Part shown: in pieces, positions 10,300 to 22,734 of the stretch
Layout: each line of letters opens with the position of its first letter
How positions within the stretch are numbered: the first letter of the stretch is position 1
Assembly: GCF_003952665.1 (NCBI RefSeq)
Contig: NZ_CP017946.1
Span: forward strand, 2,976,001 to 3,040,000
Source: Bosea sp. Tri-49
Lineage (GTDB): Bacteria > Pseudomonadota > Alphaproteobacteria > Rhizobiales > Beijerinckiaceae
Reading direction: 5' to 3'
Length of the DNA: 64,000 bases
The notes under the pieces: generated by a model
Database searches by the model: none
What the model was told of the DNA's origin: nothing
The model's input: only the letters and a program-made list of their open reading frames with translations
Translations under genes and position numbers: made by a program

Positions 10300-11289
10300 A
10301 TGGACCTGCGGCAACTGCGATGTTTCATCGCGGTGGCGGAAGAGCTGCACTTCGGCAGGGCTGCCGAGCGGCTCGGCCTCGCACCACCGGCACTTTCACG
10401 CCAGATCAGCGCGCTCGAGGACGAGCTCGGCGTCAGCCTCCTGACCCGCACCACGCGGCAGGTCGCGCTCACCCGCGCCGGGCTCATCATGCTGGAAGAG
10501 GCCAAGGCCATCCTGGTCCGGATGGAACGCGCCTCCCGCTCGGTACGCGAGGCCTCGCTGGCCTCGAGCAAGGTACTGCGGGTCGGCGCGATCGACGCGG
10601 CATCGTCGAGCTTCGTGCCGGAAGCGCTGGTCACCTTCCGCTCGCGCCATCCCGGCATCGAAATCAAGTTCGTCGAGGCGATGACGGCGCCGCTGGTGCA
10701 GATGCTGGAGGCGGGCAAGCTCGACCTCGCTTTGCTGCGGCCACCACGCAAGCCGACCGATTGTGCCTTCGAGATCCTGCGCGTCGAGCGGCCGATCGTG
10801 GTGCTGAGCGAGAGCCACCCACTCGCAGCCCGCGAATACCTGACCATGCAGGATCTGGTCGGCGAGCCCTTCGTCGTGCCGTCGAAGCGTATCCGCCCCT
10901 TCGCCTATGACCTCGTCATGGCTTATTTCGAGAGCGTCGGCGCAGTGCCGAACGTCACCATCGAGGCGACCGAGAAGCCGGCGATGATGTCGGCGGTCGC
11001 GGCCGGGCTCGGCATGGCTCTGGCGCCGGACTGGGTTTCGCGGCTGAGCTTTCCGGGCGTCACCATGCGGCGCCTGCGCGGCGCGCTGCTCGATCCACCG
11101 CCGCCCGGCGCGCTCGTCGGTGTCGCCTGGCGGCCACATCAGAAACTCGCTGCCCGCGACGACTTCCTCGCCATCCTGCGCGAGAGCGTGACCCTCATCG
11201 ACGACGGCAATGTGCTGCCGTTCAGCGTAACCGGGCGTGGCAGGAAATCCGCCATGCGCACCGCAACCACCCGAGCCGGAGGACATTGA
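10300..11289 (+). CDS. LysR-family transcriptional regulator
   Basis: 329 residues. The winged HTH at residues 1-60 is textbook (MDLRQLRCFIAVAEELHFGR, then PPALSRQISALEDELG) and the periplasmic-binding-fold effector domain covers about 90-300. The gene reads in the same direction as tctBAC and its stop overlaps the tctB start by one base (TGATG). Regulator and transporter therefore share a transcript, and the regulator probably controls the transporter and itself, with the transported carboxylate as likely effector (inference). LysR genes are more often divergent from their targets. Confidence 0.9.
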   Translation: MDLRQLRCFIAVAEELHFGRAAERLGLAPPALSRQISALEDELGVSLLTRTTRQVALTRAGLIMLEEAKAILVRMERASRSVREASLASSKVLRVGAIDAASSSFVPEALVTFRSRHPGIEIKFVEAMTAPLVQMLEAGKLDLALLRPPRKPTDCAFEILRVERPIVVLSESHPLAAREYLTMQDLVGEPFVVPSKRIRPFAYDLVMAYFESVGAVPNVTIEATEKPAMMSAVAAGLGMALAPDWVSRLSFPGVTMRRLRGALLDPPPPGALVGVAWRPHQKLAARDDFLAILRESVTLIDDGNVLPFSVTGRGRKSAMRTATTRAGGH

Positions 11290-11807
11290 TGAGTCTGAAC
11301 AAGATCGAGGCTGCGCAGGGCTGGCGCATCCGCTCGACACAGGACCTGGCCGCCGGCCTGTTCATGATCGCACTGGCGGCGTTGGCGCTGTTCCTGTCCA
11401 GCGACCTTCCGACCGGGACGCTGCGCCAGATCGGCCCGGGCATGCTGCCGAAGAGCTTCGCGGTGATCTGCGCTGGGCTCGGCGCGCTGCTCGCCTTCAA
11501 CTCGCTGCGCTACAATGGCGAGAAGCTGTCCGGCTGGTCCTGGCGCGGCGTCATCTTCGTGCTCGGCGCGGCCGTGGTCTTCGGCCTGACGATCCGTGGC
11601 TTCGAACTCGGCCCGCTCAAGGTGCCGCAGCTCGGCATGCTCGTCTCCGGCCCGCTCGTGGTGCTGATCTCCGGCTTCGCGGCCGAGGATGTGAAGCTCA
11701 AGGAACTCGTGATCTTCGCCGCCGTGATGACGACCTTCTGCGCGCTGCTGTTCAAATACGCGCTGGGTCTGCCGATCCCGCTGGCGCCCTGGCTGCTGGG
11801 GATCTGA
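11289..11807 (+). CDS. tctB: Tripartite tricarboxylate transporter, small membrane subunit TctB
   Basis: 172 residues with four predicted membrane helices. TctB pairs with TctA in the membrane part of tripartite tricarboxylate transporters, which use an ion gradient and a periplasmic receptor. The ATG at 11289 overlaps the lysR stop. A TTG directly before it is also in frame but the ATG fits coupling better. The tctA start follows four nt after the stop. Confidence 0.88.
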   Translation: MSLNKIEAAQGWRIRSTQDLAAGLFMIALAALALFLSSDLPTGTLRQIGPGMLPKSFAVICAGLGALLAFNSLRYNGEKLSGWSWRGVIFVLGAAVVFGLTIRGFELGPLKVPQLGMLVSGPLVVLISGFAAEDVKLKELVIFAAVMTTFCALLFKYALGLPIPLAPWLLGI

Positions 11808-11811
11808 GACC

Positions 11812-13365
11812 ATGAATGAGATGTTTGCCAATCTGGGCCTCGGCTTCTCGACCGTCTGGAAGATCGTGTGGTGGTCGCCTGCCTTCCTGCAGGGCGCCTT
11901 CACCGTACCCGTACCGATCAACATCGCGCTCTGCTTCGTCGGCTGCCTGGTCGGTACGCTGATCGGCGTGTTGCCCGGCGTCGGCCCGATCGCCACCATC
12001 GCCATGCTGCTGCCGATCACCTTCGGGCTCGATCCGGTCGGCGCGCTGATCATGCTCGCCGGCATCTATTACGGCGCCCAATATGGCGGCTCGACCACGG
12101 CGATCCTGGTCAATATCCCCGGCGAGGCGACCTCGGTCGTGACCACGCTCGATGGCCACCAGATGGCCAAGCAGGGCCGTGCCGGCGTCGCCCTAGGCAC
12201 GGCGGCGCTCGCCTCCTTCTTCGCCGGCACGATCGCGACCGTGGTCATCGCGGCGCTCGGCGCACCGCTGACCAAGCTCGCCTTGCTGTTCGGCCCGGCC
12301 GAATATTTCTCGCTGATGGTGATGGGCCTGTGCTTCGCCGTCGTGCTGGCGCGCGGCTCGATCCTCAAGGCCTTCTGCATGATCATGCTGGGCCTGCTGC
12401 TCTCGACCGTCGGCACCGATCTCGAGACCGGCCAGGAGCGCATGACCTTCGGCTTCCCGCCGCTCTCCGACGGCATCGACTTCGCCGTGCTGGCGATGGG
12501 CGTGTTCGGCTTCGCCGAGGTGCTGCGCAATCTGGAGAACCCGGAGACGCGCGACGTCGTGCGCACCAAGATCGGCCGGCTGCTGCCGAATTGGGAGGAC
12601 ATCAAGCAGTCGATCGCGCCGGTGGTGCGCGGCACCAGTGTCGGCGCCATTCTCGGCATCCTGCCGGGCAACGGCGCAGTACTCGGCCCGTTCGCCAGCT
12701 ATACGATCGAGAAGAAGATCGCCAAGGACCCGTCCCGCTTCGGCAAGGGCGCGATCGAGGGCGTCGCCGGACCTGAGGCCGCCAACAACGCCGGCGCCCA
12801 GACCGCCTTCATCCCGCTGCTCACCCTCGGCATTCCGCCGAACGCCGTGATGGCGCTGATGGTCGGCGCGATGACCATCCACGGCATCATCCCCGGCCCG
12901 CAGGTCATGACCAAGAACCCCGACCTGTTCTGGGGCATGATCGCCTCGATGTGGATCGGCAACCTGATGCTGCTGGTCATCAACCTGCCGCTGGTCGGCG
13001 TCTGGGTGAAACTGCTGCAGGTGCCCTACCGCCTGATGTTCCCGGCGATCCTGATCTTCTGCTCGATCGGCATCTATTCGGTGAACAACCAGCCAGTCGA
13101 CGTCGCCTTCACCGCCATGTTCGGCCTGTTCGGCTATATCCTGATCAAGCTCGGCTTCGAGCCCGCCCCGATGCTGCTCGGCTTCGTGCTCGGCAAGCTG
13201 ATGGAGGAGAAGCTGCGTCAGGCGCTGATCATCTCGCGCGGCTCGTTCATGACCTTCATCGAGCGGCCAATCTCGGCCGGGCTGCTGCTGGTCGCCGTCG
13301 CGATCCTCGTCATCGCGCTGCTGCCGTCGATGTCGAAGAAGCGCGAAGAGGTCTTCACCGAATGA
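11812..13365 (+). CDS. tctA: Tripartite tricarboxylate transporter, large membrane subunit TctA
   Basis: 517 residues, the family length, with about twelve membrane helices. Hallmark family stretches are visible: GVLPGVGPIATIAMLLP near the N-terminus, YYGAQYGGSTTAILVNIPGE, and GILPGNGAVLGPFASYTIEK. It forms the ion-coupled channel with TctB. The stop codon lies at the base of a hairpin that separates it from tctC. Confidence 0.93.
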   Translation: MNEMFANLGLGFSTVWKIVWWSPAFLQGAFTVPVPINIALCFVGCLVGTLIGVLPGVGPIATIAMLLPITFGLDPVGALIMLAGIYYGAQYGGSTTAILVNIPGEATSVVTTLDGHQMAKQGRAGVALGTAALASFFAGTIATVVIAALGAPLTKLALLFGPAEYFSLMVMGLCFAVVLARGSILKAFCMIMLGLLLSTVGTDLETGQERMTFGFPPLSDGIDFAVLAMGVFGFAEVLRNLENPETRDVVRTKIGRLLPNWEDIKQSIAPVVRGTSVGAILGILPGNGAVLGPFASYTIEKKIAKDPSRFGKGAIEGVAGPEAANNAGAQTAFIPLLTLGIPPNAVMALMVGAMTIHGIIPGPQVMTKNPDLFWGMIASMWIGNLMLLVINLPLVGVWVKLLQVPYRLMFPAILIFCSIGIYSVNNQPVDVAFTAMFGLFGYILIKLGFEPAPMLLGFVLGKLMEEKLRQALIISRGSFMTFIERPISAGLLLVAVAILVIALLPSMSKKREEVFTE

Positions 13366-13387
13366 CGGGGTTGTCACTCAACCCCGT
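13365..13387 (+). other. Intercistronic hairpin between tctA and tctC
   Basis: ACGGGGTTG (13365-13373) pairs perfectly with CAACCCCGT (13379-13387) around a TCACT loop. The first base is the last base of the tctA stop. No T-run follows, so it is more likely an mRNA-protecting hairpin upstream of the receptor gene than a terminator. Confidence 0.6.
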
Positions 13388-13426
13388 TCCACCATCTTCA
13401 AGATATCGCGTCAGGGAGGATTACCC

Positions 13427-14398
13427 ATGAAGAAGCTCGCCCTCAGCCTAGCTGCAGCGCTCGCCTTGGCGCTGCCGGCGCAGGCCCAGTCCAAGTATCC
13501 GGAGCGGCCGATCACCATGATCGTGCCCTTCGCCGCCGGCGGCCCGACGGACATCATTGCCCGCATCGTCAGCGAGAACATGTCGAAGACGCTCGGCCAG
13601 CAGATCGTGGTCGAGAACGTCGCCGGCGCCGGCGGCACCACCGGCATCACCCGCGCGCTGACGGCGACGCCGGACGGCTACACCATTGCGATGGGGCATC
13701 TGGGCACCTTCTCGGCGGCGCCCGCCACCTATCCTGGCCTGAAATACGACCCGATCAACGGCATGCAAACGATCGGCCTCGCCGGCGGCACGCCGATCCT
13801 GATCGTCGCAAAGAAGAACTTCGAGCCAAAGGACCTGAAGGAGTTCGTCACCTATGTGAAGACGAACACCGACAAGGTGAACGAAGCCCATGCCGGCGTC
13901 GGCTCGGTGTCGTGGACGACCTGCACCCTGCTCAAGGGCCAGCTCGGCGTGCCGAAGCTGAACTCCGTCGCCTATCGCGGCACCGGCCCGGCGCTGAACG
14001 ATCTTGTCTCCGGCCAGATCGACTTCATGTGCGACCAGATCGTCAGCGTTTCCGAGCAGGTCAAAGCCGGCACGATCAAGGCCTACGCCATCGCCTCGAC
14101 GCAGCGCTCGCCGGCGCTGCCCGACGTTCCGACGACCAAGGAAGCCGGACTGCCCGAGTATCAGATCGAGGCCTGGAACGGCATCGCCGCACCGAAGGGC
14201 ATGCCGAAGGAAGCCGTCGACAAGCTCGTCGACGCGCTCGGCAAGGCGCTCAACGACGAGAACGTCAAGAAGCGCCTGCTCGACCTCGGCACCGTGCTGC
14301 CGACCGCCGAGGAACGCACCCCCGCCGGCTTCGCCGCTCTGATCAAGCGCGATGCCGACAAGCTCTCGCCAGTGCTCGCCGCCGCGCCGAAGCAGTAA
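13427..14398 (+). CDS. tctC: Tripartite tricarboxylate transporter substrate-binding protein (Bug/TctC)
   Basis: 323 residues. A Sec signal peptide ends in LALALPAQAQ, and the mature protein begins with the family motif YPERPITMIVPFAAGGPTD, which forms the carboxylate-binding loop. It is the periplasmic receptor that hands substrate to TctAB. A strong GGGAGGA precedes the ATG at 13427. Family ligands include citrate, tartrate, aromatic and other carboxylates; the specificity is not readable here. An intrinsic terminator follows directly, so this is the last gene of lysR-tctBAC. Confidence 0.93.
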   Translation: MKKLALSLAAALALALPAQAQSKYPERPITMIVPFAAGGPTDIIARIVSENMSKTLGQQIVVENVAGAGGTTGITRALTATPDGYTIAMGHLGTFSAAPATYPGLKYDPINGMQTIGLAGGTPILIVAKKNFEPKDLKEFVTYVKTNTDKVNEAHAGVGSVSWTTCTLLKGQLGVPKLNSVAYRGTGPALNDLVSGQIDFMCDQIVSVSEQVKAGTIKAYAIASTQRSPALPDVPTTKEAGLPEYQIEAWNGIAAPKGMPKEAVDKLVDALGKALNDENVKKRLLDLGTVLPTAEERTPAGFAALIKRDADKLSPVLAAAPKQ

Positions 14399-14422
14399 GC
14401 GCCTCGGATCATTTACCTACCG

Positions 14423-14454
14423 AACGGCGGGCTTCATGCCCGCCGTTTTCTTTT
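14423..14454 (+). terminator. Intrinsic terminator of the tct operon
   Basis: A perfect 10-bp stem, AACGGCGGGC (14423-14432) with GCCCGCCGTT (14438-14447), loop TTCAT, followed by a T-rich tail (TTCTTTT). It lies 25 nt after the tctC stop. Confidence 0.9.
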
Positions 14455-14478
14455 AGCGGCGGCGTACTACGATGCGAC

Positions 14479-15024
14479 ATGCGCCGCATCGTCCTGCCCG
14501 TCTCCCCACTCACCGCCGAAGCCTTCGCTCCTTATGGCCACGTCCTGACCCCCGCGGGAGGCCGCGACACAGGCCGCGAGGGCTACGACATCTGGATCCA
14601 GCCCTTCGCCGCCGAGAGCCGGCCGCGACTGCAGATCGTGCGCTATCACGCGCGGCCCTTCGTCGTTGCCCTGGTCGAGCGGCACCTCCACGTCACCGAG
14701 GCGCGCCAACCGCTCGGCGACCCTCCAGCCATCATCGTGGTCGCAGAGCCGTCCGAGACGCCGCCGGCGCCGGAGGCGCTGCGGGCGTTCCGGCTCGATG
14801 GCGAGGGCGTGCTATTCCATCGCGGTACCTGGCACGCCATCGACGCCTACCCCGAGAGCGGAAGCCATGCTGATTTCCTCTTCCTCTCCGAGGAAACGAC
14901 GGTCAGCGAATTGTTCGACAATCCAGGGCGCGCGCCAGAACGGACCCAGGTTTTCGATTTCCCGGCTGCTGGAATCGAAGTCGTGATCGACACTAACTCA
15001 CCGGAAAATCAAAAGAATCGATAG
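14479..15024 (+). CDS. Ureidoglycolate lyase (AllA) family protein
   Basis: 181 residues starting MRRIVLPVSPLTAEAFAPYG, the typical AllA opening. The cupin-like core contains FHRGTWHAIDAYPE, the region of the family His ligand. AllA cleaves ureidoglycolate to glyoxylate and urea in purine (allantoin) breakdown. The frame is open far upstream over tctC, but the ATG at 14479, after the tct terminator, fits the family start. No other allantoin genes are in the window, so the biochemical role is uncertain; other members of this family may act on different ureido or malonate-like compounds. Confidence 0.65.
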   Translation: MRRIVLPVSPLTAEAFAPYGHVLTPAGGRDTGREGYDIWIQPFAAESRPRLQIVRYHARPFVVALVERHLHVTEARQPLGDPPAIIVVAEPSETPPAPEALRAFRLDGEGVLFHRGTWHAIDAYPESGSHADFLFLSEETTVSELFDNPGRAPERTQVFDFPAAGIEVVIDTNSPENQKNR

Positions 15025-15126: not shown

Positions 15127-15573
15127 ATGTTCAAGAAACTTGCTCTGGTTACGGCCCTCGCCATCGTTCCGGCTGCGGCCTTCGCTCAGAATCCTGAAGG
15201 CGCCCAGGGCGGCGCGGCCAGCGGCATCGTCGGTGGCGCGACTGCGGGTGCCGTCGGCGGCGCGGTCGTCGGTGGCCCGGTCGGTGCGGTCGTCGGCGGT
15301 GTCGGTGGCGCGGTGGTCGGCGGCGTGACCGGCGGGATCATCGGCGACAACACCCCGCGCTTCCGCACCTATGTCGTCGAGCAGCGCGTTCCGTCCTACA
15401 CCTATGCCGAGCCTGTAGTCGTCGGCACCGTGCTACCGCAGCAGGGTGTAGTCTATCGCGAAGTGCCGGCCGAATATGGCGAGCGCGCCAGCGGCTATCG
15501 CTACACCGTGGTGAACAACCGCGCCGTGCTGGTCGAACCGCAGAGCCGCCGTGTCGTCCAGATCATCGAATGA
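15127..15573 (+). CDS. Secreted DUF1236 protein with glycine-zipper region
   Basis: 148 residues. A signal peptide (MFKKLALVTALAIVPAAAFA) precedes a Gly/Ala/Val glycine-zipper stretch at about residues 28-80 and a C-terminal DUF1236 domain with YVVEQRVPSYTY, VVYREVPAEYG and NNRAVLVEPQSRRVVQIIE. DUF1236 proteins are common, poorly characterised envelope proteins of Rhizobiales. AAGGAGAA precedes the ATG. It is flanked by its own terminator and appears monocistronic. Confidence 0.85.
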   Translation: MFKKLALVTALAIVPAAAFAQNPEGAQGGAASGIVGGATAGAVGGAVVGGPVGAVVGGVGGAVVGGVTGGIIGDNTPRFRTYVVEQRVPSYTYAEPVVVGTVLPQQGVVYREVPAEYGERASGYRYTVVNNRAVLVEPQSRRVVQIIE

Positions 15574-15635
15574 CGCCAGGTCGATCCGCTTGCCGCTCGC
15601 ACCATCAAGGCCTGAGTGACGATCCGGATCACAAG

Positions 15636-15665
15636 GCCCGCCCCGGCAACGGGGCGGGCTTTTTT
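15636..15665 (+). terminator. Intrinsic terminator after the DUF1236 gene
   Basis: GCCCGCCCCG (15636-15645), loop GCAA, CGGGGCGGGC (15650-15659), then six T residues. A perfect 10-bp GC stem with a T-run; it serves the plus-strand gene upstream and ends six bases before the convergent toxin stop. Confidence 0.92.
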
Positions 15666-15670
15666 GCGTG

Positions 15671-16108
15671 TCATGATGTCAGCGGCAACCAAAGCCGCCG
15701 GTCGAAGTCGAAGGGTTGCGTCGTGAGGACCTTGATCCCGGCCGCGTCCGGATGGCGCGGGTTCACCAGGACGTTGAAGCTCCGCGGTGCGATGAAGGAT
15801 GGCACCTTCAGGAGCGCGGTCGCACCCGCAGCCAGCCAGGCATCCCCCAGCGCCTGCGGCTCCAGCGCCGCTGGGTCGCCTTCGCTTATCGACGCAGATC
15901 CGGTCTCGATCTCGATCAGGACATAGTCGTCCGGGATCAGCTCCGGCGTGAGGTCGAGATGGACCCGCACTTCCAGGATGGCGAGGGCGGGATTCTCGGC
16001 GGCGTAGACGACCGGCCGTCCGGGCGAGTTCCAGCGGCCACCATAAAGCCGCGCGCCTTCGCCGGTCAGATCAGCGAAGGCGGCGCGGGCAACGCGCCAG
16101 AGCCGCAT
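15671..16108 (-). CDS. RES-domain toxin of a type II toxin-antitoxin pair
   Basis: 145 residues forming a single RES domain: MRLWRVARAAFADLTGEGAR, then YGGRWNSPGRPVVYAAENPALAILEV, and later KVPSFIAPRSFNVLVNPRHP. The conserved Arg, Glu and Ser that name the family can be placed in these segments. RES toxins studied elsewhere (for example mycobacterial MbcT) consume NAD+; activity here is inferred. The ATG at 16108 overlaps the antitoxin stop by one base (TGATG), the classic coupled TA arrangement with the antitoxin first. Confidence 0.88.
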   Translation of the reverse strand: MRLWRVARAAFADLTGEGARLYGGRWNSPGRPVVYAAENPALAILEVRVHLDLTPELIPDDYVLIEIETGSASISEGDPAALEPQALGDAWLAAGATALLKVPSFIAPRSFNVLVNPRHPDAAGIKVLTTQPFDFDRRLWLPLTS

Positions 16109-16536
16109 CAGGCGGCGATGCCGTGCGCGATCCTGCCGAGCAACGCCTCGACCTGCGCCGCACCTTCGCCGGTGTCGAGCAGCGCCAGCGGCTTCTCGCC
16201 ATCGAGCGCACTGGTCGGGCGGCGCAGCCAGCGGCCGGCCTTGTCCTGCGAGCCGAAGGTGACCTCGGCTTCGGCGATGACGCGCGCGGCGCGCATCAGC
16301 CGGTCGGACTGCTCGGTCGTCAGCGTGCCGATCTTGCGGCGGTGGCTCAGTGTCTTGCGCGGCAACACGAGCTCGTCGATCTCGGCCAGAGTCATCCGGC
16401 CGCTTTCGATGACATGCTCGATCGTCCGCACCGGAAAGCCGCGGCGGACGGCGGCGATGAGATCGCGGCTGCTGGCGGCGGGGCCGCCCAGCGCCGCCTG
16501 GCCACCGACGACATCCAATGCAGTCAGGGCAACCAT
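16108..16536 (-). CDS. Xre/MbcA/ParS-type antitoxin (DUF2384)
   Basis: 142 residues from the ATG at 16536, which has AAGGAG seven bases upstream. An ATG 27 nt further up lies between the operator arms and upstream of the predicted transcription start, so it is rejected. The N-terminal part (ASSRDLIAAVRRGFPVRTIE, LPRKTLSHRRK) is the Xre-like DNA-binding half. The C-terminal part (WLRRPTSALDGEKPLALLDT, then a hydrophobic helix ending LLGRIAHGIAA) is the DUF2384 toxin-binding half. It should neutralise the RES toxin and repress the operon through the adjacent palindrome. Confidence 0.88.
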   Translation of the reverse strand: MVALTALDVVGGQAALGGPAASSRDLIAAVRRGFPVRTIEHVIESGRMTLAEIDELVLPRKTLSHRRKIGTLTTEQSDRLMRAARVIAEAEVTFGSQDKAGRWLRRPTSALDGEKPLALLDTGEGAAQVEALLGRIAHGIAA

Positions 16537-16549
16537 GGCGGTACTCCTT

Positions 16550-16582
16550 GGCGATATGCCCATAAGATAGGGGCATATCGCC
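16550..16582. promoter_or_regulatory. Perfect 12-bp inverted-repeat operator of the RES/Xre operon
   Basis: GGCGATATGCCC (16550-16561) and GGGCATATCGCC (16571-16582) are exact reverse complements across the nine-base spacer ATAAGATAG. The left arm touches the antitoxin Shine-Dalgarno. The spacer contains the -10 element, so bound antitoxin would block RNA polymerase. Confidence 0.85.
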
Positions 16583-16592
16583 GGAGCTTCAA
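16564..16592 (-). promoter_or_regulatory. Sigma-70-type promoter of the RES/Xre operon
   Basis: On the minus strand TTGAAG (16592-16587) is followed after exactly 17 bases by TATCTT (16569-16564). The predicted start site is near 16557, leaving a leader of about 20 nt with the AAGGAG. The -35 lies ten bases after the upp stop, so the TA pair can be transcribed independently of the URC genes. Confidence 0.65.
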
Positions 16593-16601
16593 GCGCGTAG
16601 C

Positions 16602-17243
16602 TTAGCGCGTGCCGAACATGCGGTCGCCGGCGTCGCCGAGGCCGGGCACGATGTAGCCGTGGTCGTTGAGGCGCTCATCGATCGCCGCCGTCCAGATACG
16701 GACGTCCGGATGGGAATCGCGCATGCGGGCGATGCCCTCTGGCGCGGCCAGCAGGCAGACAAAGCGCAGATCCTTGGCACCACGTTCCTTCAGCCGGTCG
16801 ACCGCCGCGACTGCCGAGTTCGCCGTCGCCAGCATCGGGTCCATCACCACGATCATGCGGTCGGCGATATCGGACGGCGCCTTGAAATAATACTCGACCG
16901 CCTGCAGCGTCTGCGGGTCGCGATAGAGGCCGATATGGGCGACGCGGGCGGCGGGCACGAGCTCGAGCATGCCGTCGAGAAAGCCGACACCGGCGCGCAG
17001 GATCGGCGCGAACACCAGCTTCTTGCCCGAGATGATCGGCTGCATCGACTTCTGCAGCGGCGTCTCGATCTCGATCAGCTCGGTCGGCAGGTCGCGCGTG
17101 ACCTCGTAGCAGAGCAGCATGCCGATCTCATTCAGCAGCTGGCGGAAGCTCTTGGTCGAGCGGTCCTTCTCGCGCATCAGCGTCAGCTTGTGCTGCACCA
17201 GCGGGTGGTCGACGACAGTGACGCCGTTCGCGCTCGTGGTCAT
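16602..17243 (-). CDS. upp: Uracil phosphoribosyltransferase
   Basis: 213 residues with the full UPRTase pattern: [39 protein letters not shown], the PRPP-binding [19 protein letters not shown], and the uracil-binding C-terminal [20 protein letters not shown]. It converts uracil and PRPP to UMP. The usual TGGS in the PRPP loop is TANS here. It lies 33 nt after the URC4-like gene in the same direction, so in this context it probably feeds the URC catabolic route rather than acting only in salvage. Confidence 0.95.
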
Positions 17244-17276
17244 GCAGTCCTGATCCCCTTCGTCTTTTGTCTGTGC

Positions 17277-18494
17277 TTAGAATACCGTGCCGTCGCTGAC
17301 GATGGTCAAGGGCGGACCGCCATCCTCGCGCTTCTCGCGGGCGATGCGGCGGCCGGCAGCCCAGGTGCCGCCCTCCAGCACCTTGGCGAGCGGCAACTGC
17401 TCGGCGCTCATGCCGAGCTGCCCACGCACCAACTCACCGATCTTGTCGAGTAGCGCAACCGTCAGCGCTCGCCATTCGACCACGAGCTGCGAGCCGACTT
17501 CGTGGCTACGCTGGGCATCGGCCGGGTCCTTCAGTTCGAGCACGCCGAGATCGAGCAGGAGCCCGCCATTGCGGTACTCCGGCAGGCCGGTCAGATCGTC
17601 GATGCCGACGACCTGGATGCCGGCCCATTGCAGCGGCTCGATCAGCGAGTAGCTCAGCCATTGCGAGAGCTTGTGGAATGGCACGATGCCCTTGGTCACC
17701 TCGCCCGGGGCGATCAGCGGGTGCTTCCAGCTGTCGCCGAGCGCGATGCCGGCATAGCTCAGGCGCGACGGCCAGATGCCGCCGAGCGCCTCCAGAACCT
17801 GCGAGAGGATATAGGCGGCACGGATCGAGCGGCCCTCGGCCGCCTCGACCAGCCGGTCGAACAGATCGCCCGGCCGGGTCAGCCCATGCTTCTCCAGCTC
17901 CTCGCCGAGGCGGTTGAGCAGCGCAGCGCGCCCCCCCAGCCCGACCAGCGGATTGCCTTCCGAGACCTGGAAGCCAGCAGCCAGCGCCGCAGCGTCGAGA
18001 TGCCTGAGCGCCTCGCTGTCGACGCGCAGCGGCTCAGCCGGATCGCTGGAAAAGGCACCGGCGGCGAACATGTCGAGCGAAGCCAGTGCCAGCCCTTCCG
18101 AACGGCCGATGCTCTGGCCGGTCACCGCATCGCGGTAGCGCCAATCGGCACCGGCGCCGGCATCGAGCAGGACGCTGACCACCGCGAGGTCATAGGCGGC
18201 GCGTCCCCTGGCTCGCGCGTCAGCGAACTGGGCGCCAGCATCCAGCACCTTCCAGCGGTCCATGCCGGCGATGATTAAATGGCGCCAGCGAGCGTGGAAG
18301 GGGATGTCGAGCGATGGGTAGTTCTGGCGGATCGTTTCCAGGACATAGGTGGCGCACGCAGTGAGCCGCTCGGGATGGACGCTGAAATGCGCCAGCCTGC
18401 CGGCAAGGCCGAGCTGCAGCATCTCCTGCGCGCGCTCGCGGACGGCGGCCGGCTTGAGCAGCCGGCGGACGGCGTCGGGATTGGAGTCAGGCAT
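17277..18494 (-). CDS. URC4/Urg3 family protein (DUF1688), uracil catabolism
   Basis: 405 residues from the ATG at 18494, eight bases after the upstream stop. Typical DUF1688 features are the start RRLLKPAAVRERAQEMLQLG, HFSVHPERL, and the C-terminal GGTWAAGRRIAREKREDGGP. Homologues are URC4 of the yeast Lachancea kluyveri and fungal Urg3, required for growth on uracil as nitrogen source by the URC pathway; its exact reaction is not settled to my knowledge. Membership is supported by the flanking URC1-like and upp genes. Confidence 0.88.
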   Translation of the reverse strand: MPDSNPDAVRRLLKPAAVRERAQEMLQLGLAGRLAHFSVHPERLTACATYVLETIRQNYPSLDIPFHARWRHLIIAGMDRWKVLDAGAQFADARARGRAAYDLAVVSVLLDAGAGADWRYRDAVTGQSIGRSEGLALASLDMFAAGAFSSDPAEPLRVDSEALRHLDAAALAAGFQVSEGNPLVGLGGRAALLNRLGEELEKHGLTRPGDLFDRLVEAAEGRSIRAAYILSQVLEALGGIWPSRLSYAGIALGDSWKHPLIAPGEVTKGIVPFHKLSQWLSYSLIEPLQWAGIQVVGIDDLTGLPEYRNGGLLLDLGVLELKDPADAQRSHEVGSQLVVEWRALTVALLDKIGELVRGQLGMSAEQLPLAKVLEGGTWAAGRRIAREKREDGGPPLTIVSDGTVF

Positions 18495-18502
18495 AAGCAG
18501 GG

Positions 18503-19765
18503 TCAGAACTTTTCGAGGTCGCGGCCGACAGTGGCCTTGAGTGCGTTGTCGCCGGGCGCGCCGTCGGGCGAATAATAACCGGCCGCCTTCTTCGCCTCGA
18601 TCTCGACCGAGGCATCCGGCGGGACGAGCTCGGGCGGGATGGCGACGCGCTCGCCGATCTCGATGCCGCTCTCGACCATGGCGTCGTATTTCATGTTCGA
18701 CATCGACATCAACCGGTCGATCTTCTTCACCCCGAGCCAATGCAGCACATCCGGCATCAATTGCTGGAAGCGGGCATCCTGCACGCCGGCGACGCATTCG
18801 GTGCGCTCGAAGTAGGTCGCGGCGGAATCGCCGCCCTCCTGGCGCTTGCGGGCGTTGTAGACGAGGAACTTGGTGACCTCGCCGAGCGCCCTGCCCTCCT
18901 TGCGGTTGTAGACGATCAGGCCGACACCCCCGGCCTGCGCTTCCTTCACCGCCTCCTCGATGCCATGCACCAGATAGGGCCGGCAGGTGCAGATGTCGGA
19001 GCCGAAGACGTCGGAACCGTTGCACTCATCATGGACGCGGCAGGCGAGCGTCTTCCTGGGATCGCAAATCGCCGAGACCTCGCCGATGACATAGGCGGTG
19101 ATCGAGCCGATCGGCGGCAGGAAGACCTTGAGATCGGGCCGCGTCACCAGCTCGGGATACATGCCCCCGGTCTGCTCGAACAGCGTGCGGCGCAATTCGT
19201 TCTCGGTGGTGGCGAAGCGCTCGGCGATCCCCGGCAGGTGCCAGACCGGATCGACCGCGATCTTGGTGACGCTGATGTCGCCGGAGCCGTGCAGGATGGC
19301 GCCGTCAGCCGCCAGCCGGTGACCGGCCATGGCAGCGAGGATCTCGGGCAGGTTCAGCCGCGCCTTGGTCACCGCGATGGTCGGGCGGATGTCGATGCCC
19401 TCGCCGATCAGCTTGCCGAAATCCTGGGCGACGCGATGGCCGAACGGATCGAGCGAGACGATTCGGCCGGGCTCGAACCATTGCGGCTGCGGCAGGATGT
19501 CGGAGGTCGGGTGGGTGTTGGTCAAGTCCGGACGCTGCGCTGGGTTCATGGCGCGGGCGGAAATCGCGAGCGCGCGATAGACCGAATAGGAGCCGCCATG
19601 GGCGCCAATGCAGTTGCGATCACCCGGCGCCGTGGTCGAGGCGATGACCGGGCCGCGTTCCTCCGGCGTGCCGGCACCCCACTGGATCGGGAAGCGGGTC
19701 GAGGCGTTGCCGGGCTCGGGATGCGAGGTCAGGCGAATATGGGTGGTGCGGTTCTGCGAATTCAT
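18503..19765 (-). CDS. URC1-like GTP cyclohydrolase II homologue, uracil catabolism
   Basis: 420 residues. An N-terminal extension of about 200 residues, not found in RibA, precedes a GTP cyclohydrolase II fold. The three zinc Cys are retained at 248, 259 and 261 (HDECNGSDVFGSDICTC). The RibA EGRGIGL loop is EGRALGEV here, and the substrate pocket around DARFQQLMPDVLHWLG also differs. Automatic annotation would give ribA, but the long N-terminus, the altered motifs and the adjacent URC4 and upp genes indicate URC1, which is thought to open the pyrimidine ring at nucleoside or nucleotide level. First gene of URC1-URC4-upp. Confidence 0.87.
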   Translation of the reverse strand: MNSQNRTTHIRLTSHPEPGNASTRFPIQWGAGTPEERGPVIASTTAPGDRNCIGAHGGSYSVYRALAISARAMNPAQRPDLTNTHPTSDILPQPQWFEPGRIVSLDPFGHRVAQDFGKLIGEGIDIRPTIAVTKARLNLPEILAAMAGHRLAADGAILHGSGDISVTKIAVDPVWHLPGIAERFATTENELRRTLFEQTGGMYPELVTRPDLKVFLPPIGSITAYVIGEVSAICDPRKTLACRVHDECNGSDVFGSDICTCRPYLVHGIEEAVKEAQAGGVGLIVYNRKEGRALGEVTKFLVYNARKRQEGGDSAATYFERTECVAGVQDARFQQLMPDVLHWLGVKKIDRLMSMSNMKYDAMVESGIEIGERVAIPPELVPPDASVEIEAKKAAGYYSPDGAPGDNALKATVGRDLEKF

Positions 19766-19845
19766 CGCGGTGATCGCTCGATCTGTCGGGCATGGCCTGG
19801 TCGCAAGATCGATTCCACTTTTTGCGGACCATGCTCGAACGGGAA

Positions 19846-19879
19846 AGGGCCCCGGGACGGGTCGCGTCCGGGGCCCTCT
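19846..19879 (-). terminator. Long GC hairpin, possible terminator
   Basis: AGGGCCCCGGGACG (about 19845-19858) pairs with CGTCCGGGGCCCT (about 19864-19876) with one bulged base. On the minus strand it is followed by TTTCCCGTT, a weak T-tract. It could end the small membrane-protein transcript that enters from the right, or act in the leader of the URC operon. Confidence 0.45.
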
Positions 19880-19941
19880 GGACCAATGAGATTCTGGATC
19901 AGCGCGTGATTTTCGTCAATTGCCGGTTGAAAGCGTCACCA

Positions 19942-20030
19942 CCGCCATGGCCGGGCCTTGTCCCGACCATCCAGGTGCTCGCCATGAAGGCGATGTTCGC
20001 ATGGACGCTCGCCACGGGGCGAGCATGACG
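19942..20030. repeat. Palindromic intergenic repeat of the GLVPAIHV-coding type
   Basis: An imperfectly palindromic GC-rich stretch. One frame reads PWPGLVPTIQVL, resembling the GLVPAIHV peptides often mis-annotated as tiny proteins in Rhizobiales, which come from dispersed intergenic repeats. CTCGCCACGGGGCGAG at its end forms a small hairpin. Repeat status in this genome is inference, because only one full copy is in the window. Confidence 0.5.
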
Positions 20031-20044
20031 GCTGCCCCTTTGGC

Positions 20045-20206
20045 TTAGAAGACCGCGAGATAACGCAGCAGCGAAATGATACCGATAATGATGACGATGA
20101 TCTGGACGATGTTCTTCATGTTGCCGTCGATCGGCAGCATCCGCACGAGATAAAGCACCAGCGCGATCACTAGGATCGTGATCAACAGCGAAATCAGAAG
20201 GCTCAT
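20045..20206 (-). CDS. Small Thivi_2564-type membrane protein
   Basis: 53 residues with an ATG at 20206 and AGAGGA about nine bases upstream. Two hydrophobic helices (residues 3-22 and 31-48) flank the polar turn RMLPIDGNMKN, the layout of the Thivi_2564 family of short bacterial membrane proteins. Function is unknown. It lies 279 nt upstream of the URC1-like gene in the same direction but is separated from it by a terminator-like hairpin and a repeat. Confidence 0.75.
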   Translation of the reverse strand: MSLLISLLITILVIALVLYLVRMLPIDGNMKNIVQIIVIIIGIISLLRYLAVF

Positions 20207-20370
20207 GGCTCAAATCCTCTTATCGCGGCCGAAAGCCGGCCCCCCGAGGCGCTAGCTGCGACGCATTCGCAGGCAGCGACCTCAGGCAAGAGAACGTCGA
20301 GCCATGGGAAAAAGTTCCGAAAGGCTAGCTGGCTGAGGTCTTCAGCCTCCGGCGAGAACCAGAGACGCGC

Positions 20371-20518
20371 GGGATCCCCTCTCCTGAAAGGAGAGGGGTA
20401 GGGGTGAGGTGTTCGGGAGCGGAATCGGTAGCCTGAACCAACGCGCGGTGAGTGCAGCACCCCGCTGGTCCAGCGGCCTACACCTCACCCTGCCCTCTCC
20501 TTCCAGGAGAGGGTTCTC
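20371..20518. repeat. Composite palindromic repeat after glyS
   Basis: Two half-units face each other. CCCCTCTCC (20376-20384) and GGAGAGGGG (20390-20398), followed by GGGGTGAGGTGT, are mirrored by ACACCTCACCC and then CCCTCTCC (20493-20500) and GGAGAGGG (20506-20513). Each half makes its own hairpin and the halves can pair with each other. It fills most of the 320-nt space before glyS and could also stop transcription from glyS. Confidence 0.75.
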
Positions 20519-20526
20519 CGCGCCCT

Positions 20527-22734
20527 TTAGCCCGCAATCCGCGAGAAATCCGCCACCGCGCGGGTCGCCTCGCGCAGCTGGTTCAAGAGCTTGAGGCGAT
20601 TGGCACGCAGGGCCGGATCAGGGTCATTGACCGTGACCTTGTCGAAGAAGGCGTCGACCGCCGGCCTGAGCTCGGCGAGCGCCGTCATCGCGCCCTCATA
20701 GTCCTCGGCAGCGACCGCCGCTTCCGCCTTCGGCGTCGCCTGTGCCAGCGCGACCGCGAGCGCCTTCTCCTCGATCAGCCCGGCATCGGCGATGAGCTGG
20801 AGATCGGCCTTGCCGGCGAAGGCGCCCTCGCCGTCCTTCTTCTCCTCGGCTTTCAGGATGTTGGCGGCGCGCTTGTAGCCGGCCAGCAGGCTCTTGCCGT
20901 CTTCCGTTTCGAGGAAGCGGCCGAGCGAGTTGAGGCGTTGGACGATGAGAACTAGATCACGGCTATTGCCCATTCCGGGCAGCATCTCATCGCGCCTAAC
21001 ACCCATTTCCAAGACAGCATCGACTAGGTCGAAGCGCGCGCCCTGGTCGCGCAACTGGACCTTTAGGCGTTCGCCAATGAACTGAACGAGTTCAAAAGCG
21101 GAATTCATTGCATCGTGGCCGGGGAAGCGATCACCGTGTCGCGTTAGCAACGGGATCAGCTCAACCCTAGTGGAGTTCTCCAGGATGAGCCGGATCACCC
21201 CCAGCGCCGCGCGGCGCAGGGCGTAAGGGTCCTTGCTCCCGGTCGGCTTCTCGTCAATCGCCCAGAAGCCGACCAGCGTGTCGAGCTTGTCGGCAAGCGC
21301 GACGGCAACCGAAACCGGATCGGTCGGCACGCGGTCGGAGGGGCCGAGCGGCTTGTAGTGTTCCTCGATCGCCGCGGCGACAGAGGGGTTCTCGCCCTGC
21401 AGCTCGGCGTATTTGCGCCCCATCAGCCCCTGAAGTTCAGGGAACTCACCGACCATCTCGGTCGGCAGATCGGCTTTGGCGAGTTTCGCCGCGCGCTCGG
21501 CCAGCGCCGGATCGGCGCCGACGATCGGCGCCAGCTCTTTCGCCAGCGCCGCGATGCGCTGGACGCGCTCGCCTTGCGTGCCAAGCTTGGCGTGGAAGAC
21601 GACGCCGAGCCTGTCGAGCTTGGCCATGCGCTGGTCGAGCGGCTTGGCGAGGTCAAGCCCCAGCTTGTCAGCACTCTCCTTCAGCGTATCGAGATCGGGC
21701 AGCGGGCCGCGATCGGTCTGCCAGAAATAGGCGGCGTCGGAGAGGCGGGCCCGCACGACGCGGCCATTGCCGGCGGTGATCGCCAGGCCGCCATCGCTCG
21801 CCATCAGGTTCGAGACCGGGATGAAGCGATTGGCGAGCTCGCCGCTGTTCGGATCGCGCAGCACGAAGCATTTTTGGTTGGCGCGGATGGTGGCGCGGAT
21901 CGCCTCGCCGGGAATCTCGAGGAAGCGTTCCTCGAAATCGCCGAGCAGCACGACCGGCCATTCGACGAGACCGGCGACCTCCTCCAGCAGACCCTCATCC
22001 TCGACCAGTTCCAGCCCCGCGGCAAAGGCGAGGTTCTTGGCGTCGGTCGCGATGATCTCCTTGCGGCGATCGGCGTCGAGCACGACCTTGGCCCGCTCCA
22101 GGCTGGCGACATAGTCGTCGAAGCGCTTGACCGTGATCGGCCCCGGCGCATGGAAGCGGTGGCCATAGGTGATGTTGGAGGATTTGATGCCGTCGACGTC
22201 GAAGGCGACGACCTCCGGATCCTCGGTCTCGGCGCCGAAGGTGCAGAGGATCGAGTGCAGGGGACGCACCCAGCGCAGCGAGCCGCTCTCAGCCGAGGCC
22301 TTGCCCCAGCGCATCGATTTCGGCCAGGGGAAGGCGCGGATCACCGCCGGCACGATCTCGGCGATCGCCGCGACCGTCTCCTGCCCCGGCTTCTCGATCA
22401 CGGCGATGTAGCTATCGCCCTTCTTCGGATCGCTGACGATCGTCGCCTGGTCGAGCGAAGTGAGCCCCGCAGCCTTGAGGAAGCCCTGCACGGCAGCGTC
22501 CGGCGCGCCGACGCGCGGCCCTTTCCGCTCCTCGCGGACATCGCGGCCACGCACGGGCAGGCCGGCGATGGTGAGCGCGAGCCGACGCGGCGTCGCGAAG
22601 GCCTTGGCGCCTTCATAGGTGAGCCCGCGCTCGACCAGCGCATCGGTGACGAGCTTCTTCAGGTCCTCGGCCGCCTTGCGCTGCATGCGCGCCGGGATTT
22701 CCTCGGAGAAGAGTTCGAGCAGGAGATCAGGCAT
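20527..22734 (-). CDS. glyS: Glycyl-tRNA synthetase beta subunit
   Basis: 735 residues. The N-terminus [20 protein letters not shown] is diagnostic of GlyS, and the internal [10 protein letters not shown] and [16 protein letters not shown] are also family landmarks. The C-terminal region resembles the DALR anticodon-binding fold. With GlyQ it forms the alpha2beta2 synthetase that charges tRNA-Gly. The ATG at 22734 overlaps the glyQ stop by one base (TGATG), so translation is coupled. Confidence 0.95.

Follow-up and report, generated by a model that had tools for sequence, protein, structure and literature searches.

Analysis of a 64,000-nucleotide stretch of Bosea sp. Tri-49 DNA (the window; C1:2976001-3040000 of a 6.45-Mb genome in two contigs) revealed a cluster of three open reading frames (ORFs), all on the minus strand, which probably form a URC-type operon for uracil degradation. 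The first (18503..19765) encodes a URC1-type protein of 420 amino acids, in which Pfam and NCBIfam scans and a match in the Protein Data Bank (PDB) identified an N-terminal GTP_CH_N domain and a GTP-cyclohydrolase-II-like domain. The second (17277..18494, with its ATG at 18494) encodes the 405-residue URC4 protein, which belongs to DUF1688 and is a distant homologue of Qng1. The third (16602..17243) encodes a uracil phosphoribosyltransferase (UPRT) of 213 amino acids, recognized by TIGR01091. The spacers are 8 nucleotides (URC1/URC4) and 33 nucleotides (URC4/UPRT), in agreement with an earlier note on this DNA, which had described three adjacent minus-strand genes with these gaps. All three genes that define a URC module are present together. 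The module had been called complete; this holds for the three core genes but not for urease, which is encoded elsewhere in the genome.

The same three protein types make up the URC pathway of the yeast Lachancea kluyveri (URC1, URC4 and URC6, the last of which we take to be the UPRT), the combination named in the earlier note as URC1-URC4-FUR1. That reading is supported: the gene order and co-occurrence given below fit one pathway. L. kluyveri handles urea via URC3 and URC5, whereas the Bosea operon is bacterial, with a urease in the genome and no allophanate hydrolase above the cut-off there. In Schizosaccharomyces pombe, urg1, urg2 and urg3 (GTP-cyclohydrolase-II-like, UPRT-like and DUF1688 genes) are clustered as here and are reported to be induced by uracil (PMC2174524). 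That cluster, unlike the Bosea one, is fungal. Two papers already describe a bacterial URC module (PMC3869809; PMC12507026), and one of them states orthology between bacterial and fungal proteins of the URC4 type (PMC3869809). The locus is another instance of this known and widespread module, and NCBI applies the name 'URC4/urg3 family protein' to many proteins closely related to the second gene's product.

A genome scan confirmed at least 568 URC4 relatives, with record titles that include Alphaproteobacteria, Legionella, Myxococcota and a Bdellovibrionota bin, and 7996 URC4-related proteins were scored and accepted. Eighty outside loci were kept from the scan, some with genes cut by contig ends. 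URC1, URC4 and UPRT are contiguous in 65 of these loci, and the triple is therefore more than a chance association. Among the loci kept, the closest is that of Bosea sp. Tri-44 (96% identity for URC4, 100% for URC1). Of 121 related genomes, 75, in 13 of 55 genera, carry both the URC1 N-domain family and the URC4 family, and a comparison of the positives by eye showed the two sets to be the same. The window's own genus contributes 67 of the 121, so that the genomes are not independent; URC4 is present in 63 of these 67. Scans of family representatives identified ORF families for phosphopentomutase (14 of the 80 loci), thymidine phosphorylase (11) and deoxyribose-phosphate aldolase (7) in the fetched stretches, which fits nucleoside breakdown in those genera. 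Five loci (L033, L038, L039, L046 and L049; three titled Enterovirga, one Rhizobiales and one a Methylorubrum bin) have URC4 and no URC1 ORF in the fetched stretch despite room for it. In G029, a genome of the window's genus, the DUF1688 match is in two pieces with an internal TGA (C1:4724658-4725838), and the gene may be decaying. Several DUF1688 relatives (P0012, P0023, P0063 and P0111) are named 'uracil phosphoribosyltransferase' at source, a label probably carried over from the neighbouring gene.

Pfam placed GTP_CH_N (PF12471, 258 bits) at residues 9-198 of URC1, which accounts for the 200-residue N-terminal extension noticed earlier, and also detected GTP_cyclohydro2 (PF00925, 61 bits). 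PDB entries 7eev and 7ej3, the UTP (uridine triphosphate) cyclohydrolase, align with residues 7-418 of URC1 at 566 bits; 2bz0, which we take to be E. coli RibA, gave 38.6 bits. URC1 thus combines GTP_CH_N and a GTP-cyclohydrolase-II-like domain with a full-length match to the solved enzyme, from which it differs in sequence with no mechanistic difference seen. The source of the two entries is presumably Zhang et al. (ACS Catal 2021), and a study under the name 'UTP cyclohydrolase' has been published for the URC pathway. The codons of the C248...C259-x-C261 motif (CNGSDVFGSDICTC; 18983..19024, minus strand) align with C54/C65/C67 of 2bz0, cysteines that presumably have a zinc role, and CNGSDVF[G/S]SDICTC was found in all 71 full-length URC1 sequences of the outside loci. 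The EGRALGEV loop, residues 290-297 (18875..18898, minus strand), lies where RibA structures carry EGR[N/G]IG; the alteration pointed out in the earlier note is a constant one, as the same 71 sequences read EGR[A/S]LGEV (A in 70, S in one). The URC1 gene product is a probable UTP cyclohydrolase, and UTP would be its substrate in this organism.

The product of the third gene matched Pfam UPRTase at 249.6 bits and TIGR01091 at 274.9 bits (cut-off 208.35), as expected from its earlier assignment as a UPRTase. Proteins of this family convert uracil into uridine monophosphate (UMP). No other UPRTase in the genome is above the cut-off, the runner-up reaching 25.2 bits against 27. A urease alpha subunit is encoded elsewhere (185.8 bits, cut-off 23) and provides a route from urea to ammonia. 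Neither RutA nor PreA passes its cut-off in the genome.

URC4 matched DUF1688 (PF07958) at 484.7 bits (gathering score 25), as the earlier note had it; no NCBIfam model matched URC4 at E<=0.01. When the predicted fold of URC4 was compared with known structures, Qng1 structures were nearest by a wide margin and DNA glycosylases came next, indicating that URC4 has the fold of Qng1/Q_salvage (DUF2419). The control set of 28 families consisted of ORF clusters of the same loci, some perhaps spurious; the controls URC1 and UPRT gave 16.2 and 13.4. A DUF2419 protein is reported to free queuine from queuosine (PMC9406330), and the Qng1 structures (7u07, 7u91, 7ulc, 7ugk) are those of an enzyme releasing queuine from queuosine-5'-monophosphate. 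Identity between URC4 and Qng1 is 14-21% depending on the method, and URC4 is longer (405 versus 315-344 residues). Helix-hairpin-helix (HhH) DNA glycosylases (endonuclease III, OGG1, MutY) have a core in common with URC4 (Z mostly 7-10), but this match is much weaker than that of Qng1 and suggests no DNA role.

Two residues invariant in 61 of 61 URC4 sequences are candidates for catalysis. Lys275 (codon 17670..17672, minus strand) aligns with Lys199 of Qng1, for which 7u5a is titled mutant K199C, and Glu306 (codon 17577..17579, minus strand) aligns with Asp231, as counted by hand on the URC4/Qng1 alignment. The title of 7ulc names mutant D231N with queuosine-5'-monophosphate, which points to Asp231 as the catalytic residue of Qng1. 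The Qng1 pattern is kept or nearly kept at K275, Q278, E306, E340, R342 and W378 of URC4. With this fold, the URC4 family is a sister family of Qng1 that probably acts in a similar way, and not a member of it. PDB titles describe Qng1 crystals with queuosine-5'-monophosphate, and a 5'-phosphorylated ribosylurea is therefore a natural guess for the substrate of URC4, a probable ribosylurea(-5-phosphate) N-glycosidase. We consider it likely that URC4 represents a second branch of Qng1-lineage free-nucleotide N-glycosidases, glycosylase-derived and with Glu for Asp, whose substrate would be ring-opened ribosylurea-5'-phosphate instead of a base; the product of URC1, keeping its phosphate, would then pass directly to a glycosidase that prefers a 5'-phosphate. 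No Qng1 was found in 299 genomes of the window's phylum, where the controls were silent as well, so that absence is not shown, nor in the genomes of three loci. A literature search found no paper joining the names DUF1688/URC4/urg3 with DUF2419/Q_salvage/QNG1; most subscription journals were outside its coverage and the link may be in print.

Overall, the data argue for a bacterial URC uracil-degradation operon, a reading to which we give a probability of about 0.8. UPRT would form UMP from uracil and kinases would presumably carry UMP to UTP. URC1 would open the pyrimidine ring as a UTP cyclohydrolase, an activity already published for this pathway; the identity of the ring-opened product we infer. 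URC4, because of its homology to Qng1, would hydrolyse the N-ribosidic bond of ribosylurea or its 5'-phosphate to urea and ribose (or ribose phosphate), with invariant Glu306 in the role of Asp231, and urease would free ammonia from the urea.

Several observations weigh against this reading. Q_salvage (PF10343) scored 11.4 bits on the window's URC4 (E 0.24), under the gathering score of 25, so that by this model URC4 is not a Qng1, and 47 of the 61 URC4 sequences fail to reach Q_salvage at E<=1. In return, DUF1688 matched only one of 13 Qng1 proteins (E 0.0029), and PDB sequence searches with URC4 were empty, both with the single protein (E 1) and with a profile (E 10). The Asp of the Qng1 FADY motif is replaced by Glu306 throughout URC4, and a common fold does not prove a substrate. 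One or both partners are non-adjacent in 15 of the 80 loci, some of them short contigs (UPRT without URC1 in the stretch, 6; URC1 without UPRT, 4; URC1 adjacent and UPRT elsewhere, 3; both elsewhere, 1; neither, 1). The deo families are absent from all 17 Bosea-group loci (L006-L022), and their nearness in other loci was not compared with chance. The single UPRT may serve salvage, and another locus of the genome encodes a protein that scores above the cut-off of a dihydropyrimidinase model. There (L108; C1:981000-999000) its gene adjoins a hydantoinase/carbamoylase-family amidase (TIGR01879 224.1, cut-off 204), possibly in a hydantoin-use operon. With this neighbour, and with PreA below its cut-off, dihydropyrimidinase was rejected as a rival uracil route.

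If URC1 were a divergent riboflavin GTP cyclohydrolase II, the cluster would bring riboflavin and salvage genes together by chance. The routine name agrees with this, since NCBIfam labels URC1 'GTP cyclohydrolase II' (NF005536, 731 bits, cut-off 403), as the earlier note had forecast, and its PF00925 domain carries the RibA-like Cys motif and EGR. However, the genome encodes three PF00925 proteins, and one of the other two (L001) is a separate RibA-like protein, with NF006456 at 488.3 (cut-off 464) and NF001591 at 202.2 (cut-off 148); with TIGR00505 it stays below the cut-off (167.7 versus 205.85). The remaining one (L002, C1:5159399) is RibBA-like: its RibB half is well matched (TIGR00506 238.3, cut-off 177.45), and its GTP-cyclohydrolase-II half is weak and lacks the Cys motif. 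On URC1 itself the curated RibA models score far under their cut-offs (TIGR00505 51.9 versus 205.85; NF001591 60.8 versus 148). In a domain tree, 17 URC1 sequences split from five RibA/RibBA sequences with an ultrafast bootstrap of 99; the RibA/RibBA set includes three fragments from the PDB, and support is weak for several branches inside the URC1 group. Both sequence checks proposed in the earlier note thus favour its reading: URC1 does not group with RibA, and a separate RibA is encoded in the genome. Taken with the co-occurrence of URC1 and URC4 by genome, this leaves the riboflavin explanation very improbable.

Two further explanations concern function. URC4 might not cleave an N-glycoside at all, acting instead in further hydrolysis of the opened ring or removal of a three-carbon fragment, with a glycosidase-like fold that is merely ancestral. 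The Glu in place of Asp would suit this; the structural ranking and the retained Qng1 pattern speak against it, as do two publications. In a model paper, uncharacterised steps of URC1 and URC6 lead from uracil to ribosylurea and 3-hydroxypropionate, and URC4 takes ribosylurea to urea (PMC7530994); a review lists URC4 as a putative ribosyl-urea degrading enzyme (PMC8709784). We regard this alternative as unlikely. Less probable still is that the cluster serves mainly UTP-pool control or removal of damaged pyrimidine nucleotides and not growth on uracil. This would agree with a UPRT that stands alone in the genome, but deo genes lie close to the module in some other genera, the fungal orthologues respond to uracil (PMC2174524), and yeast is stated to need the URC genes to use it (PMC7530994).

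The link between URC4 and Qng1 gives a fold and candidate catalytic residues (Glu306, Lys275) to a protein of unknown function and makes an undefined step testable by urea release. It bears on thousands of related proteins and, by the orthology published in PMC3869809, on fungal ones. If true, the Qng1-lineage assignment would settle the URC4 step in bacteria and fungi and give a DUF a mechanism. The first gene, meanwhile, is still labelled GTP cyclohydrolase II by annotation models.

Directly downstream of UPRT, at 15671-16563 (minus strand), lies a RES/Xre (ParT-ParS) toxin-antitoxin pair (toxin 136.8 bits, antitoxin 105.9 bits, each above cut-off). Genes for a LysR-like regulator and a tripartite-tricarboxylate-type transporter were identified by eye at 10300-15024 (plus strand), where one ORF weakly matches ureidoglycolate lyase (54.5 bits, cut-off 260); this is possibly a second cluster for nitrogen compounds. 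An Rfam search over 15500-20700 gave no match above the gathering score. Between a small ORF and URC1, at about 19844-19880 (minus strand), a GC-rich hairpin followed by T residues is kept among the aligned Bosea loci. It was considered as the terminator of the small gene or as an operon attenuator; a simple terminator scan was positive in 2 of 69 loci versus about 1.5 of 69 from shuffles (0.022 per sequence), a scan that misses the bulged Bosea hairpin, and we claim nothing for it. Finally, a palindrome-like CCCTCTCCT...AGGAGAGGG repeat occurs twice in the spacer at 20367-20523. It looks like a dispersed intergenic repeat, and a similar stretch lies upstream of URC1 in locus L013.
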